Below, in pieces: positions 13,674 to 24,238 of a stretch of 64,000 bases of DNA. Position 1 is the first letter of the stretch, and the number at the start of each line of letters is the position of its first letter. Location: the NCBI RefSeq assembly GCF_001457775.1, contig NZ_CYSG01000016.1, positions 1 to 64,000 on the forward strand. The letters are read 5' to 3'. This stretch comes from Phaeobacter sp. CECT 5382 (GTDB taxonomy: Bacteria > Pseudomonadota > Alphaproteobacteria > Rhodobacterales > Rhodobacteraceae). The notes under the pieces were generated by a model, which was not told where the DNA came from, searched no databases, and saw only the letters and a list, made by a program, of their open reading frames with translations. The position numbers and the translations under genes were made by a program.

Positions 13674-14600
13674 CTAGACCCCAAGGCACCAACGCATAAC
13701 AGCCTTTTGCGCGTGCAAACGGTTCTCGGCTTCGTCAAAAATCACCGACTGCGGCCCGTCCATCACGGCAGAAGTCACTTCTTCTTCGCGGTGCGCAGGC
13801 AGGCAGTGCATGAACAAGGCATCCGATTTGGCGTGGGCCATCAGCTCCTCGTTGACCTGATAGGGGCGCAACATATTGTGGCGCCGCTCTTTTGACAACT
13901 GACTGTCATGCATGCTGACCCAGGTATCGGCCACGATAAGATCGGCCCCTTCGACGGCTTTGAATGCATCGCGTTCAATCACCACTTTGGATCCTGCCTT
14001 ACGCGCCAGACCCACGAATTCCTCTTCGGGGTCCAACTGGGCAGGTCCGGTAAAGGTGAGATCAAAGCCAAACTGCGCCGCCGCATGCAGGAAGGAGGCG
14101 CAGACGTTGTTGCCGTCACCAGCCCAGACCACCTTTTTGCCCTTGATCGAGCCACGGTGTTCTTCGTAGGTCTGAATATCGGCCATGATCTGGCAAGGGT
14201 GCGTGCGATCAGTCAGACCATTGATCACCGGCACAGAGGCATATTCCGCCATCTCGGTCAGCACGGTTTCGTCAAAGGTGCGGATCATGATCAGATCCAC
14301 ATAACGCGAAATCACCCGGGCGGTATCCGCAATGGTTTCACCATGCCCCAGCTGCATGTCCTTGCCGGACAGGACCATGGTCTGCCCGCCCATCTGGCGC
14401 ACACCAACATCAAAGGAAATCCGTGTCCGGGTCGAGGGTTTTTCAAAGATCAGCGCGACCATCTGACCGGCAAGTGGCTGTTCGTCATCCGGTGTGCCCT
14501 TGGGGCGATCGGCGCGTGCCTGCTTCATCATTTTGGCTTGATCGATGATGCCGTGCAGATCTTCTGAACTGGTTTTGTGGATGTCGAGAAAATGGTTCAT
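13674..14600 (-). CDS. argF: Ornithine carbamoyltransferase
   Basis: 308 residues, full length. The carbamoyl-phosphate loop STRTR is at 56-60, HPCQ at 134-137, the ornithine-side DTWVSM near 226 and HCLP at 265-268. The enzyme joins carbamoyl phosphate and ornithine to give citrulline in cytoplasmic arginine synthesis. The start at 14600 (MNHFLDI) was chosen for homology. The upstream extension in frame overlaps argD and the intergenic repeat. It is second in a minus-strand operon after argD (91-base gap). CarB, which makes its carbamoyl phosphate, is at 60417-63773. Confidence 0.97.
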
Positions 14601-14691: not shown

Positions 14692-15867
14692 TCAGGCCTG
14701 CTCGACCTGTGTCGCGGCCTGATCCAGACGGGCGAAGGCCTCGGCGATATCCTCATCGCTCAGGGTCAGAGGCGGCAGAAGCCGGACGACATTGTCTGCG
14801 GCGGGCACCGTGATCACGGCGTTGTCATAGCCTGCATTGACCACGTCTATATTGCTGGCCTTGCATTTCAGCCCCAGCATCAGGCCCGATCCGCGCACCG
14901 CTTCAAAGACATCGGGATGAGCCGCCACCAGCCCTTCGAGCTTTTGGCGCAAAAGCCCTGCCTTGCGGTTCACGTCTTCCAGAAACCCAGGGGCAAGCAC
15001 CTCTTCGACCACAGCGCAGCCGATCGCACAGCCCAGCGGGTTGCCGCCATAGGTGGACCCATGGGTGCCAGCCGTCATGCCCGATGCAGCCTCTTCGGTG
15101 GCCAAAACAGCGCCGAGGGGAAAGCCGCCGCCGATGCCTTTGGCGACCATCATGATATCCGGCGTGATCCCGGCCCATTCATAGGCAAAGAATTTACCGG
15201 TCCGGCCGACACCGCACTGCACTTCGTCAAGGATCAAAAGCACCCCAGCGTCGTCGCAGATCTGGCGCAGCGCCTTCATCTCGGCATCGGGAACCGGGCG
15301 GATACCGCCTTCGCCCTGCACCGGTTCAATCAGCACCGCTGCGGTCTTGTCTGAGATGGCATTGGTCAGCCCATCCAGATCGCCAAAGGTGAGATGCACA
15401 AAGCCCGGCAACAAGGGGCCAAACCCTTTGACCATTTTTTCGGTACCCGCAGCCGCAATACCCGCCGAGGAGCGTCCATGGAAAGAACCATCAAAGGTGA
15501 TGATCTCAACCCGGTCAGGCTGGCCTTTTTCATAGAAATACTTGCGCGCCATCTTGACCGCCAGCTCGCAGGCTTCGGTGCCGGAGTTGGTAAAGAAAAC
15601 CGTGTCAGCAAATGTGTTTTCAACCAGAAGATCCGCCAGTTTTTCCTGCTGTGGAATCTTGTAGAGATTGGAGACATGCCAGAGCTTCTGCGCCTGATTG
15701 GTGAGCACCTCGACCAGCTTTGGGTTGGCATGGCCCAGCGCGTTCACAGCGATGCCAGATCCCAGATCCAGAAATCGGCGCCCGTCCGCCTCGAACAGCC
15801 AGGAACCTTCGCCTTTTACGAACTCCAGCGGAGCACGATTATAGGTGGGCAGTACGGACGGGATCAT
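14692..15867 (-). CDS. argD: Acetylornithine aminotransferase
   Basis: 391 residues, a class-III PLP aminotransferase. Visible features are the [15 protein letters not shown] cofactor phosphate-binding block (94-108), [11 protein letters not shown], the PVQGEGG segment, [12 protein letters not shown] with the PLP-pairing Asp, and the Schiff-base lysine in [12 protein letters not shown] (K243). It converts N-acetylglutamate semialdehyde to N-acetylornithine. ATGs at 15876 and 15867 are both in frame; AAAAAGG ends immediately before the first, so the second ([13 protein letters not shown]) has proper spacing and matches the family. A 17-residue Arg-rich leader ORF lies 129 bases upstream on the same strand (15997-16050). 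Confidence 0.96.
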
Positions 15868-15996
15868 CGGGATCATCCTTTTTCACAAGTTGAGGCCAAA
15901 GCAGTGCATGAGCTGGGCCAGAGGGTCAATAAAGAGAAAGTGTTTTTGTGTTCCCGCGCCGCAGAAGGGGCCAGGACACAGATCAAGCGGGCCGGA
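15868..15996 (-). promoter_or_regulatory. Leader region between Arg-rich peptide and argD (possible attenuator)
   Basis: On the minus strand the sequence after the leader stop can fold in exclusive ways. One fold is TGTGTCC with GGGAACACA (bulged), followed by the pyrimidine-rich CTTTCTCTTTATT. Another pairs the Arg-codon segment GACGCCG with the CGGCG in TGCGGCGCGGG. A small hairpin ACGCC-GTTT-GGCGT covers the last Arg codons and the stop codon. This is the expected logic of a translating-ribosome attenuator, but the terminator is imperfect and the folding was done by eye. Confidence 0.4.
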
Positions 15997-16050
15997 TTAC
16001 GCCAAACGGCGTCGGCGTCGAAGCAAGGGGATATGCGTGGCTTTGATCAT
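15997..16050 (-). CDS. Arginine-rich leader peptide of the argD operon
   Basis: A 17-codon ORF encodes MIKATHIPLLRRRRRLA. Five consecutive arginine codons (CGA CGC CGA CGC CGT) sit near the end, two codons before the stop. A Shine-Dalgarno GGAG lies 7 bases upstream of the ATG, so it should be translated. It precedes argD by 129 bases in the same orientation. Runs of the regulated amino acid in a short translated leader are the hallmark of ribosome-mediated attenuation (his, trp, leu leaders), and the downstream genes are arginine biosynthetic. Stalling at Arg codons when charged tRNA-Arg is scarce would raise argD-argF expression. The function is inferred; the ORF, its codons and its SD are directly visible. 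Confidence 0.7.
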   Translation of the reverse strand: MIKATHIPLLRRRRRLA

Positions 16051-16256
16051 AGTCAGGCTCCATATCGGAGGAATTGACGAAATGAAAGCCCTTTTGTGAA
16101 GCCCTATGTGGCATTTTGAAACTTCGCCCCCCTAACGACCAAATCACCTTCGGCGCGTGCTCCCCCCCACGTCCGCTGACCCAAGCCTGCTGACCCAAGC
16201 CCGCCAATGACGCGATAAGGCTTGCAAATGATGCGACAGCAGCGCACCCCTGTCAC

Positions 16257-17156
16257 ATGAGCATTTCAACACCGCAAAACCCACGCCTCGCAGCCTGTCT
16301 GATCCTGATCGCAACCATATTCATGGCCGCGACAACCCTGCTTGCCAAGGCTTTGGGAACAGAGACCCTGGGGCCTGCCCTGCATCCAATGCAGGTCAGT
16401 TTTGGCCGGTTCTTTTTTGCATTCATTGCGATTTCCAGCGCTGTTGCAGTCTTGCGGTTCAAATTGCAGCGCCCCCTTTGGCGTCTGCATCTGGGGCGCA
16501 CCAGCTGTGGCTGGCTCGGTATCACGTTGATGTTCGCCGCCGTGGCCCATATTCCGCTGGCAGATGCCACGGCCATCACGTTCTTGAACCCGGTCTTTGC
16601 CATGCTGCTGGCCATCCCCTTGCTGAAAGAAAGCGTCGGCCCCTGGCGTTGGGCGGCTGCCGGAATCGCCTTCATAGGTGCCATGATCCTGCTGCGCCCA
16701 ACACCGGATAGTTTTCAGCCCGCAGCCCTGCTGGCGCTGGCCGCGGCTATGGTGATCGGGCTGGAGCTGATTTTCATCAAGAAGCTATCAGGGCGCGAAC
16801 GTCCCCTGCAGGTGCTGTGGTTCAACAATGCCCTTGGCATGACCATTGCCAGCCTTGCGGTGCTGCCGGTCTGGCAGATGCCGACGCTGGAACAATGGGG
16901 CGCGCTGGCAGCGCTTGGCACCCTGATGGCCTGCGCGCAGGCCTGTTTCGTAAATGGCATGGCGCGCGGCGATGCGTCGTTTGTGGCCCCGTTCAGCTAT
17001 GCGACGCTGATCTTTGCCACGCTCTATGATTTTGTGGGCTTCGGGCAGATCCCAGACCGGGTGACGGTTCTTGGCGCCTGCGTTATCCTCACGGGAGCAG
17101 CGGTTCTGGCCTGGCGCGAAGGGCGCAGGCGGCCAGAACTGCAAGATGCAGCCTAA
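16257..17156 (+). CDS. DMT-superfamily (EamA) transporter
   Basis: 299 residues with ten hydrophobic segments in two EamA repeats of five helices. The first repeat ends in the glycine/proline-rich ATAITFLNPVFAMLLAIPLLKE signature and the second in ASFVAPFSYATLIFATLYDFVGFG. A basic C-terminal tail follows the last helix. Such inner-membrane carriers export metabolites or amino acids; the substrate is not predictable. The start ATG at 16257 has only a weak ribosome site. The preceding 206 bases (16051-16256) carry the presumed promoter of the argD leader on the other strand and nothing else I can name. The stop overlaps the stop of the convergent ABC-2 permease gene. Confidence 0.87.
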   Translation: MSISTPQNPRLAACLILIATIFMAATTLLAKALGTETLGPALHPMQVSFGRFFFAFIAISSAVAVLRFKLQRPLWRLHLGRTSCGWLGITLMFAAVAHIPLADATAITFLNPVFAMLLAIPLLKESVGPWRWAAAGIAFIGAMILLRPTPDSFQPAALLALAAAMVIGLELIFIKKLSGRERPLQVLWFNNALGMTIASLAVLPVWQMPTLEQWGALAALGTLMACAQACFVNGMARGDASFVAPFSYATLIFATLYDFVGFGQIPDRVTVLGACVILTGAAVLAWREGRRRPELQDAA

Positions 17157-17971
17157 GCTTTCAAGCGGTAGCCACTGCGCAGCATGAGCCAGGCCAGAAA
17201 ACAGATAGCAAGGCTCGCAGCACTGCAAATCACCATTCCCGTCACGGGTGATCCATCCGAAGTGCCAATCATGCCATAGCGCACCCCATCAATCAGATAG
17301 AAGACCGGGTTGAGCTGCGACAGGGTCCGCAGCACTGGTGGCAGCGCCGATACTGAATAGAAGGTACCGGACAGGAACGCCAAAGGGGTGACGATAAAAT
17401 TGGTAATGGCGGCCATCTGGTCGAACTTGTCCGCAAATACCCCGGCAACAATGCCAAGACCACCCAGAAACAGTGCGCCTTGGATCACAAACCCAAGCGC
17501 CACCAGCGGATGGGCCGGAACAATCTGCAAGAACAGCGCCAGTCCCAGCGCGATCCCCAGCGCCACCACAGTGCCGCGCGCGACAGCCCCCGCCAGATAC
17601 CCCAGCAAAATCTCCAGCCCCGACAGGGGCGGCATCAAGGTATCAACGATATTGCCCTGCACCTTGGAAATCACAATCGACGAGGATGTATTGGCAAAAG
17701 CGTTCTGGATCACCGCCATCATCATGATGCCCGGCGCCAGAAAATTCAGGAAAGGCACGCCCATGACATCACCCCGGCTCGGGCCAATCGCCAGGTTGAA
17801 GATCATCAAAAACAACGCCGCCGTCACCAATGGCGCCAGCAAGGTTTGCGTCCAGACCACCCAGAACCGGGTAATTTCACGCCCGGCCAGAGTTTTCAGC
17901 CCCAACCAATTGACCCGACCAAAGCGGCGTTCGCCCAGTGGAATCTGGTAACCTGTCTGATGCTCCGGCAT
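17153..17971 (-). CDS. ABC-2 type transporter permease
   Basis: 272 residues with six membrane segments. An amphipathic N-terminal part (GLKTLAGREITRFWVVWTQTLLAPLV) precedes the first helix, as in ABC2_membrane proteins such as YadH. The conserved FLSGTFYSVSALPP...LSQLNPVFYLIDGVRYG block before the last helix is characteristic. Members export drugs or glycolipids together with a separate ATPase. No ATP-binding gene adjoins it here, so its partner must be elsewhere. The stop codon overlaps that of the EamA gene (convergent). Confidence 0.88.
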   Translation of the reverse strand: MPEHQTGYQIPLGERRFGRVNWLGLKTLAGREITRFWVVWTQTLLAPLVTAALFLMIFNLAIGPSRGDVMGVPFLNFLAPGIMMMAVIQNAFANTSSSIVISKVQGNIVDTLMPPLSGLEILLGYLAGAVARGTVVALGIALGLALFLQIVPAHPLVALGFVIQGALFLGGLGIVAGVFADKFDQMAAITNFIVTPLAFLSGTFYSVSALPPVLRTLSQLNPVFYLIDGVRYGMIGTSDGSPVTGMVICSAASLAICFLAWLMLRSGYRLKA

Positions 17972-22495: not shown

Positions 22496-24238
22496 TCAAA
22501 ACATGAAATAGCGCTGCGCCATGGGCAATACCTCAGCGGGCTCGCAGGTCAGCAATTCGCCATCCGCGCGCACCTCATAGGTTTCCGGGTTCACTTCGAT
22601 GTCCGGTGTCGCATTGTTCAGCAACAGATCCGATTTGCCGATACCGCGGGTGTTGCGCACGGCCACGGTCTGCTTTGCCAGCCCCAGACGCGCGCCGATG
22701 CCTGCATCCTGTGCTGCCGCACTGACAAAAGTAACAGCAGAGTTTTCAACCGAGCGCCCGAATGCGCCGAACATCGGCCGCGAATAGACCGGTTGCGGTG
22801 TCGGGATAGAGGCATTGGGATCGCCCATCTGCGCCATGGCGATTGTCCCGCCGAGCAGCACCATTTCAGGCTTCACCCCAAAAAAGGCCGGGTTCCACAG
22901 GACCAGATCCGCGCGTTTTCCCACCTCGACAGAACCGATTTCATGCGAGATCCCATGCGCGATGGCCGGGTTGATGGTATATTTGGCGATGTAGCGGCGA
23001 ACGCGGAAATTATCATTTTCACCAGCTTCCTCCGACAGGCGCCCGCGTTGTTTTTTCATCTTGTCAGCGGTCTGCCAGGTGCGGATCAAGACCTCGCCCA
23101 CGCGCCCCATCGCCTGACTGTCAGAGGCGATGATCGAAAAGGCGCCCATGTCGTGCAGGATGTCTTCGGCGGCAATGGTCTCGCGGCGAATGCGGCTTTC
23201 GGCAAAGGCGACGTCTTCGGGGATGGATTTGTCCAGATGATGGCAGACCATCAGCATGTCCAGGTGTTCTTCGAGGGTGTTCACCGTAAAGGGCCGCGTC
23301 GGGTTGGTCGATGAGGGCAGCACGTGCTCTTCGCCACAGATGCGGATGATATCAGGGGCATGGCCACCGCCGGCCCCTTCGGTGTGGAAGGCGTGGATGG
23401 TGCGCCCCTTCATGGCGGCCACGGTATTTTCCACAAAGCCGCTTTCATTCAGCGTGTCGGTGTGGATCATCACCTGCACGTCCATGTCATCGGCCACCGA
23501 CAGACAGCAATCAATGGCGGCCGGTGTGGTGCCCCAGTCTTCGTGCAGTTTCAGCGCGCAGGCGCCGCCCAGCACCTGCTCTTCGAGGGCGGCAGGCAGC
23601 GAGGCATTGCCCTTGCCTGCAAAGGCCATGTTCATTGGGAATGCATCCGCCGCCTGTAACATCCGTCCCATATGCCAAGGCCCCGGCGTACAGGTCGTCG
23701 CCAATGTGCCATGGGCCGGGCCGGTGCCACCACCCAGCATGGTGGTCAGGCCGGAATGCAATGCATCGTCGATCTGCTGCGGACAGATAAAGTGGATATG
23801 GCTGTCAAACCCCCCGGCCGTCAGAATGCGGCCCTCGCCAGCAATGACTTCGGTGCCGGGGCCAATGATGATATTCACCCCTGGCTGAGTGTCCGGATTG
23901 CCCGCTTTGCCGATCTGACGGATGCGCCCCGATCTGAGGCCGACGTCCGCCTTGTAAATCCCAGAGTGGTCAACGATCAACGCATTGGTAATGACCGTAT
24001 CAACCGCGCCTTCGGCACGGGTTGCCTGACTTTGGCCCATACCATCGCGGATCACTTTGCCACCGCCGAATTTGACCTCTTCGCCATAGCGCGGTGCATT
24101 GCCCGCCCCGGCGGCCAGGTCTGCGGTCAGGTCGCGCTCAACCTCGATTATCAGATCCGTATCGGCCAGCCTCAGCCGGTCACCGGTGGTGGGGCCAAAC
24201 ATGGCGGCATAGTCTGCGCGATCAATCTGGGCGGGCAT
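22496..24238 (-). CDS. ureC: Urease subunit alpha
   Basis: 580 residues, about ten longer than most UreC. All active-site groups are visible: HIH at 147/149, carbamylated Lys230 in [12 protein letters not shown], nickel-ligand His residues in [10 protein letters not shown] and [12 protein letters not shown], and the MVCHHL flap with the catalytic His at 333/334. The C-terminus YFMF is usual. It hydrolyses urea to ammonia and carbamate in the cytoplasm. AAAGGACC precedes the ATG. It lies 89 bases after ureB and begins the ureCEFG half of the cluster. Confidence 0.98.

Follow-up and report, generated by a model that had tools for sequence, protein, structure and literature searches.

Arginine operons are normally known for control by ArgR, a DNA-binding repressor acting on the pathway that the argD leader described here would regulate. 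Among described leader ORFs, the alphaproteobacterial trpL of Sinorhizobium meliloti resembles the argD leader in carrying cognate codons before a biosynthetic gene, and two reports place the start of its RNA, rnTrpL, at the ATG of the leader ORF (PMC7298713, PMC10117765). As described there, trpL senses Trp by way of a terminator and an antiterminator (PMC7298713), whereas the argD leader has Arg codons and no canonical form of these elements was found.

The orf34-speF leader of Salmonella likewise has consecutive Arg codons, two of them, and is reported to sense arginine, with Rho-dependent termination and RNase G involved (PMC6386406). Unlike the argD leader, it is gammaproteobacterial, encodes a 34-codon DUF2618 peptide and stands before an ornithine decarboxylase gene; the argD leader is a 17-codon ORF before argD, set apart from DUF2618 by description. 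Within the Rhodobacterales, the uORFC-8-2 motif before cysS also combines a leader ORF with tandem cognate codons, but these are Cys codons within a stem, and its consensus model has a U-run in all cases (PMC8632094). At our locus, the codons are Arg codons before argD, and a scan gave no terminator-like site. Among the matches listed from the open-access PMC literature, no arginine leader before argD in Rhodobacterales appears in titles or the beginnings of abstracts.

The window, by which we mean the whole 64,000-nucleotide stretch that was analyzed, carries the leader ORF and two arginine genes on the same strand.

13674 to 14600, minus strand: argF, ornithine carbamoyltransferase; start at 14600 taken from the beginning of the family match
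14692 to 15876, minus strand: argD, acetylornithine transaminase; likely start at 15867, the second in-frame ATG, with AAGG 9 nt upstream
15997 to 16050, minus strand: leader ORF MIKATHIPLLRRRRRLA*, read from the sequence; one rule identifies a leader in 190 of the 198 distinct loci of the family

The identities of argD (NCBIfam PRK01278 and TIGR00707) and argF (PRK00779 and TIGR00658) are each supported by two matches over the cut-off, and the closest relatives of this argD are from Pseudophaeobacter, Phaeobacter and Roseobacter strains. An earlier sequence-only reading had pointed to a 17-codon ORF with five Arg codons ahead of argD-argF. That ORF, which reads MIKATHIPLLRRRRRLA*, is present on the minus strand (16050-15997). 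Its five Arg codons (CGA CGC CGA CGC CGT) are consecutive as described, but the run is near the stop codon rather than next to it, since Leu and Ala intervene. The spacing of 129 nt to argD is right when counted from the likely start at 15867, and shortens to 120 nt from the upstream ATG at 15876. Covariance models of Rfam 15 gave no match to positions 15850-16110 at E values up to 1.

Conservation of the leader ORF

Our sample of argD upstream regions comprised 80 named loci, 12 loci from the genus of the window (its own genome included) and one locus each from 120 further genera of the family. These 212 loci yielded 198 distinct upstreams. The 120 genera represent the better-scoring places among those listed, such that the family's most divergent argD genes lie outside the sample, and a search at the level of the order returned members of the window's family only. 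The outgroup, 40 of 59 listed places, consisted of argD upstreams taken from 39 alphaproteobacterial genomes outside the family. One automatic rule was applied to all loci and superseded calls made by eye: an ATG or GTG start, a length of 7-24 codons, an end at least 50 nt before argD, at least two adjacent Arg residues, and at least two Arg within the last nine residues.

By this rule, a leader is found in 190 of the 198 distinct family upstreams, compared to 27.4 in dinucleotide shuffles. Requiring at least three Arg in a row together with a -10 TA (described below) leaves 151 of 198 family loci, and requiring at least four Arg with a correctly placed TA leaves 120, against 0.2 in shuffles for either rule. 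The same three rules select 11, 1 and 0 of the 40 outgroup loci. The comparison of argD upstreams across relatives that the sequence-only reading had called for thus recovers the short ORF with its Arg run. Short ORFs are common, and the relaxed rule is satisfied by shuffled and outgroup loci at the rates just given; nevertheless, the real family count rules out a chance ORF for practical purposes. Judging by these sequences, the leader element is an old and nearly fixed trait of the sampled family, with its strict form absent from the outgroup sample.

Eight family loci are leader-less (L146, L156, L173, L176, L184, L194, L203 and L213), and these retain argD and the TTGAC element discussed below. 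Six others (L052, L055, L071, L108, L148 and L177) have leaders by eye that earlier filters had missed or misread. In two of the leader-less loci, L184 and L194, an ABC-permease-like gene ending in GYRMKP terminates immediately ahead of the promoter-like element of argD (by eye). Four of the 11 relaxed outgroup matches (L247, L252, L253 and L274) resemble, also by eye, the FRRGYRLK-like terminus of an ABC permease encoded upstream. The similar permease end before argD in these four outgroup loci suggests an older permease-argD gene order. The window itself has an ABC-2-type permease ending in GYRLKA farther upstream of argD (17153-17971, minus strand; PRK15066 at 212.5 bits against a cut-off of 225), and an EamA-like transporter gene (16257-17156, plus strand) lies between it and the argD region.

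Outside the Arg run, the leader peptides differ considerably; among those passing the length filter, they run from 9 (MNRKTTLRR) to 21 residues. This divergence makes a peptide that arrests its ribosome by binding arginine or ornithine very improbable, even though HI residues recur ahead of the Arg run in many roseobacter leaders. A compact leader type, seen for example in L064, L117, L121 and L157, ends in IRRA* or LRRA* and has tandem CGA CGA in place of the CGACGCCGACGC run. There are apparently two alternative Arg-box designs inside the family.

The predicted RNA start and a stem over the start codon

Upstream of the leader ORF, the sequence contains a promoter-like element.

16059 to 16087, minus strand: P1, promoter-like element of the leader, from sequence reading, its -35 by eye only

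P1 consists of a -35-like TTTCAT (16087-16082), a 17-nt spacer and a -10-like TATGGA (16064-16059) that lacks T at -7, and its predicted transcription start is the A of the leader ATG at 16050. The missing T fits a promoter type described for Rhodobacter (PMC8407463). Counts of start sites and codons were made on 182 distinct loci out of 188. A TA as in a -10 core, whose T lies 11-14 nt ahead of the ATG of the leader, is present in 162 of these 182; other windows of four positions hold it in 4-19 loci, and the partly overlapping window at -16 to -13 in 86.

The leader had also been credited with a good Shine-Dalgarno sequence. While a GGAG does exist 7 nt before the ATG in the window, its bases overlap the -10-like TATGGA, and such a signal is not conserved: SD-like 4-mers precede 16 of 182 leaders, compared to 13.9 in shuffles. 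A looser rule applied to both genes finds one before 30 of 182 leaders (shuffles 44.5) and before 179 of 182 argD genes (shuffles 38.0). Given the -10-type TA placed 11-14 nt before the ATG in 162 of 182 loci, the leader mRNA probably begins at its ATG and would be leaderless, as predicted from the sequence pattern.

A leaderless RNA of this kind would carry its start codon at the very 5' end, and in the window this end can pair with a segment behind the stop codon.

16043 to 16048, minus strand: 5' strand of the start-closing stem, GAUCAA, transcript nt 3-8, from the window fold and covariation
15981 to 15986, minus strand: 3' strand of the start-closing stem, UUGAUC, 11-16 nt past the stop, from the window fold and covariation

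Taken by itself, the stem of the window's own copy (L082) has a z of 0.7, and its support is therefore comparative. We counted contiguous stems of at least 6 bp that start at nt 1-3 of the transcript in 176 distinct loci. The 5' end of a locus pairs with the segment behind its own stop codon in 99 of the 176, compared to 37.4 with shuffled downstreams, 31.8 (sd 4.9) with the 5' end of another locus and 15 with a control query. Among the 133 loci whose start differs from ATGATCAA, 63 pair with their own start, against 30.5 in shuffles and only 16 with the ATGATCAA start.

An alignment of 36 rows agrees, with changes on both sides in 18 cells (8.9 in shuffles) and a fall of paired cells from 81.9% to 22.6-55.4% when the partner is slid along; these rows were picked by eye, partly for an apparent 5' stem, and the 176-locus test is the unbiased one. 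RNAalifold, run on four aligned groups, returned the 5' stem in the genus group and not in the three more divergent ones.

An attenuated leader RNA or peptide that acts in trans, like rnTrpL and peTrpL of Sinorhizobium, has to be weighed here. rnTrpL, too, is reported to have its 5' end at the leader ATG (PMC7298713, PMC10117765). Moreover, a CATAT element found within argD leaders around transcript nt 16-22 falls in each of the three frames (46, 16 and 2 loci), so that the peptide alone does not explain it and the signal is not purely one of codons. We nonetheless regard action in trans as quite unlikely, as the element sits beside argD in nearly all distinct loci (190 of 198), which points to a role in cis.

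From the stop codon to argD

Between the start-closing stem and argD lie three further elements.

15947 to 15980, minus strand: hairpin D, UGUGUCCUGGCCCCUUCUGCGGCGCGGGAACACA, immediately behind the start-closing stem and not a perfect stem in the window; from the window fold, above shuffles across loci
15931 to 15940, minus strand: pyrimidine tract CUUUCUCUUU after hairpin D, from sequence reading and composition across loci
15901 to 15929, minus strand: P2, promoter-like element of argD (TTGACC 15929-15924, 17 nt, CACTGC 15906-15901), from conservation of TTGAC

Hairpin and pairing z-scores were computed on the 182 loci with TTGAC. The hairpin between leader and TTGAC reaches a mean z of 1.17, with z above 2 in 28% of these loci, and the tract behind it is rich in C and U and poor in G across loci. 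In the 95 stem-bearing loci, the best hairpin lies downstream of the stem in 58, starting 2 nt (median) behind it, while it overlaps the 3' strand of the stem in 10 and precedes that strand in the remaining 27.

As in trp and his attenuators, a conserved short ORF with a run of cognate codons precedes the cognate gene here (190 of 198). In a textbook attenuator of the trp type, the Arg codons would lie in region 1, followed by a mutually exclusive 2:3 antiterminator and 3:4 intrinsic terminator. The sequence-only reading had proposed a version of this, in which the Arg codons pair with a downstream GCGGCG that takes part in a terminator-like stem. GCGGCG is there, inside CTGCGGCGCGGG, but a scan of positions 15850-16300 gave no terminator-like site, and pairing of the Arg codons with downstream segments stays at a mean z of 0.09-0.26 relative to shuffles across the 182 loci, with 0.26 for the segment that follows directly (region 1:2 pairing). 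Neither definition of a 2:3 antiterminator, the region just past the stop against the middle segment or the 3' strand of the 5' stem against the next 36 nt, exceeds a z of 0.02.

Of the elements of a trp or his attenuator, the hairpin is present; the U-run terminator, control-codon:region 2 pairing and 2:3 antiterminator were not found. Canonical U-run terminators (at least 6 T in 8) occur at the rate of chance, in 6 of 187 loci with 3.8 expected, and a U-run is absent as a rule. Weaker T-rich sites are about threefold enriched in the same loci (37 with at least 5 T in 8, 12.8 expected; 86 with at least 4 T, 31.0 expected). An ATG match is present in 202 of the 212 loci, and these 187 remain after removal of the ten without one plus L108, L052, L055, L071 and L083-L093.

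We then modeled hairpin D with a ribosome at defined positions in the 143 loci whose D stem has at least 5 pairs. In the absence of a ribosome, D is predicted to form at a mean of 0.68; a ribosome on the first Arg codon gives 0.67, on the last 0.71 and on the stop codon 0.75. The gain from first Arg to stop (mean 0.077, Wilcoxon p 8.6e-5) exceeds 0.2 upward in 29 loci and downward in 8. Because D is nearly as frequent with the ribosome at the first Arg as at the stop, D itself can hardly be the switch according to this model; the simple D that the script picked for the window's own copy has almost zero predicted probability. The enriched weak terminators and the modest rise of D towards the stop codon speak for a trp-type design, and a weak terminator with a modest switch is possible. 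The classical switch is unsupported, and given the missing pairings and U-run we consider the trp-type design unlikely. Of the ribosome-mediated arginine attenuator that had been proposed, what stands is the conserved Arg-rich leader ORF; its Arg-codon terminator/antiterminator switch and canonical intrinsic terminator are not supported.

Of the 198 distinct family loci, 192 have the TTGAC of P2 35-90 nt ahead of argD, as do 7 of the 40 outgroup loci. TTGAC falls within 45-54 nt in 166 of 197 leader-bearing loci and is seen by eye in all eight leader-less ones. An inverted repeat past TTGAC was considered as a conserved RNA hairpin; it covaries by eye but has a z of only 0.05-0.37, and TTGAC was therefore treated as the -35 of a promoter. 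The best interpretation is that TTGAC forms the -35 of a promoter for argD itself, followed after 17 nt by a weak, putative -10 (CANNNN). CANNNN would be an unusually poor -10 partner for a nearly invariant TTGAC, and a GCAC motif recurs.

The region around TTGAC also bears on a post-transcriptional output, as proposed for orf34-speF, in which pausing at the Arg codons would alter the stability of the mRNA or the accessibility of the argD start. That system, which involves a pair of adjacent Arg codons as well as Rho and RNase G (PMC6386406), offers a precedent, and the covarying 5' stem could shield or expose the RNA 5' end. The stretch from TTGAC to argD, however, has no hairpin above shuffles (z 0.05-0.37), and no pairing was found between it and segments of the leader. 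By this analysis, such an output is unlikely.

A proposed arginine response and its reach

The choice of Arg codons in the leader differs from that in argD. CGA opens the Arg run in 170 of 182 loci and makes up 45.3% of leader Arg codons compared to 7.9% of those in argD genes (80 loci). CGC is used at 46.2% and 52.9%, and CGG at 1.8% and 20.0%, respectively. One tRNA reads CGA, CGC and CGU, and CGA is its slowest codon. The leader therefore seems to poll one tRNA, with, we infer, the slowest codon placed first.

The leader is very probably an arginine-responsive cis element, as far as sequence comparison can tell. For its mode of action, on balance we lean towards an arginine sensor in which closure of the stem ends the P1 transcript before P2. 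A pioneer ribosome would load onto the leaderless RNA while it emerges. When Arg-tRNA reading CGA, CGC and CGU is ample, the ribosome would complete the leader and depart, allowing the 5' stem and hairpin D to form; the P1 transcript would then stop ahead of P2 and argD, via Rho or via a weak terminator at the pyrimidine tract. When this tRNA is scarce, the ribosome would be held on the Arg codons, the 5' stem would be kept open and P1 transcription would continue into argD-argF. P2 would be the source of basal expression. The output step of such a ribosome-sensed leader is possibly of the Rho type.

Several observations weigh against this preferred reading. The stem is found under the rule of at least 6 bp in 99 of 176 loci rather than in all, canonical terminators are at chance (6 of 187, 3.8 expected), D is imperfect in the window and nearly without predicted probability in the form picked by the script, and the eight family loci without a leader still keep TTGAC and argD.

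A bolder generalization, which we hold to be doubtful, is that these leaders form a new class of amino-acid attenuator without an antiterminator. Here a leaderless mini-mRNA would have its start codon closed by a stem with the segment past its stop codon and its Arg codons read by the pioneer ribosome only; the state of the stem, and not the Arg-codon region, would decide passage into argD, and this would be the general arginine control of the whole family. The predicted leaderless leader gene and the covarying stem over its own start codon do not fit the textbook picture of terminator and antiterminator. If the preferred reading is true, an arginine biosynthesis operon joins the pathways sensed by the translating ribosome. 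The leader is in any case a candidate for family-wide control of arginine synthesis in a large bacterial group that includes the roseobacters, and one that is easily testable.

Finally, we looked for further copies of the element. The exact Arg-box 11-mer CGACGCCGACG matches 1-15 times per genome in 12 genomes of the genus, below the reversed control in each; there are 7 matches in the window's own genome, and in G004 the argD copy is the sole one. In the own genome we searched argG, argH and argJ, all over their cut-offs, and a likely argC (80.4 bits against a cut-off of 229.85, matched from profile position 82 onward), each with 1.5 kb flanks. The filter required either a run of three Arg or an adjacent pair accompanied by a third, a setting that the shortest IRRA type would escape. 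On the gene strand within 1.5 kb upstream of these four genes, no ORF has three adjacent Arg and none is positioned like the argD leader. Among the arg loci tested in this genome, argD-argF is the only one that appears to be under this kind of control. ORFs with two Arg do occur: VVHWPSHHFRGCRR about 320 nt before argG, lacking a -10 TA, VRAYFLLALRRSARRK more than 1 kb upstream of the argC match, and VSGRLARRGRNP, which has a TA, about 1.06 kb before argJ.

Elsewhere in the window, positions 23765-24052 (plus strand) match the Rfam family 5_ureB_sRNA (RF02514) at 96.5 bits (E 5.6e-24), possibly as nothing more than a conserved ureB coding region.
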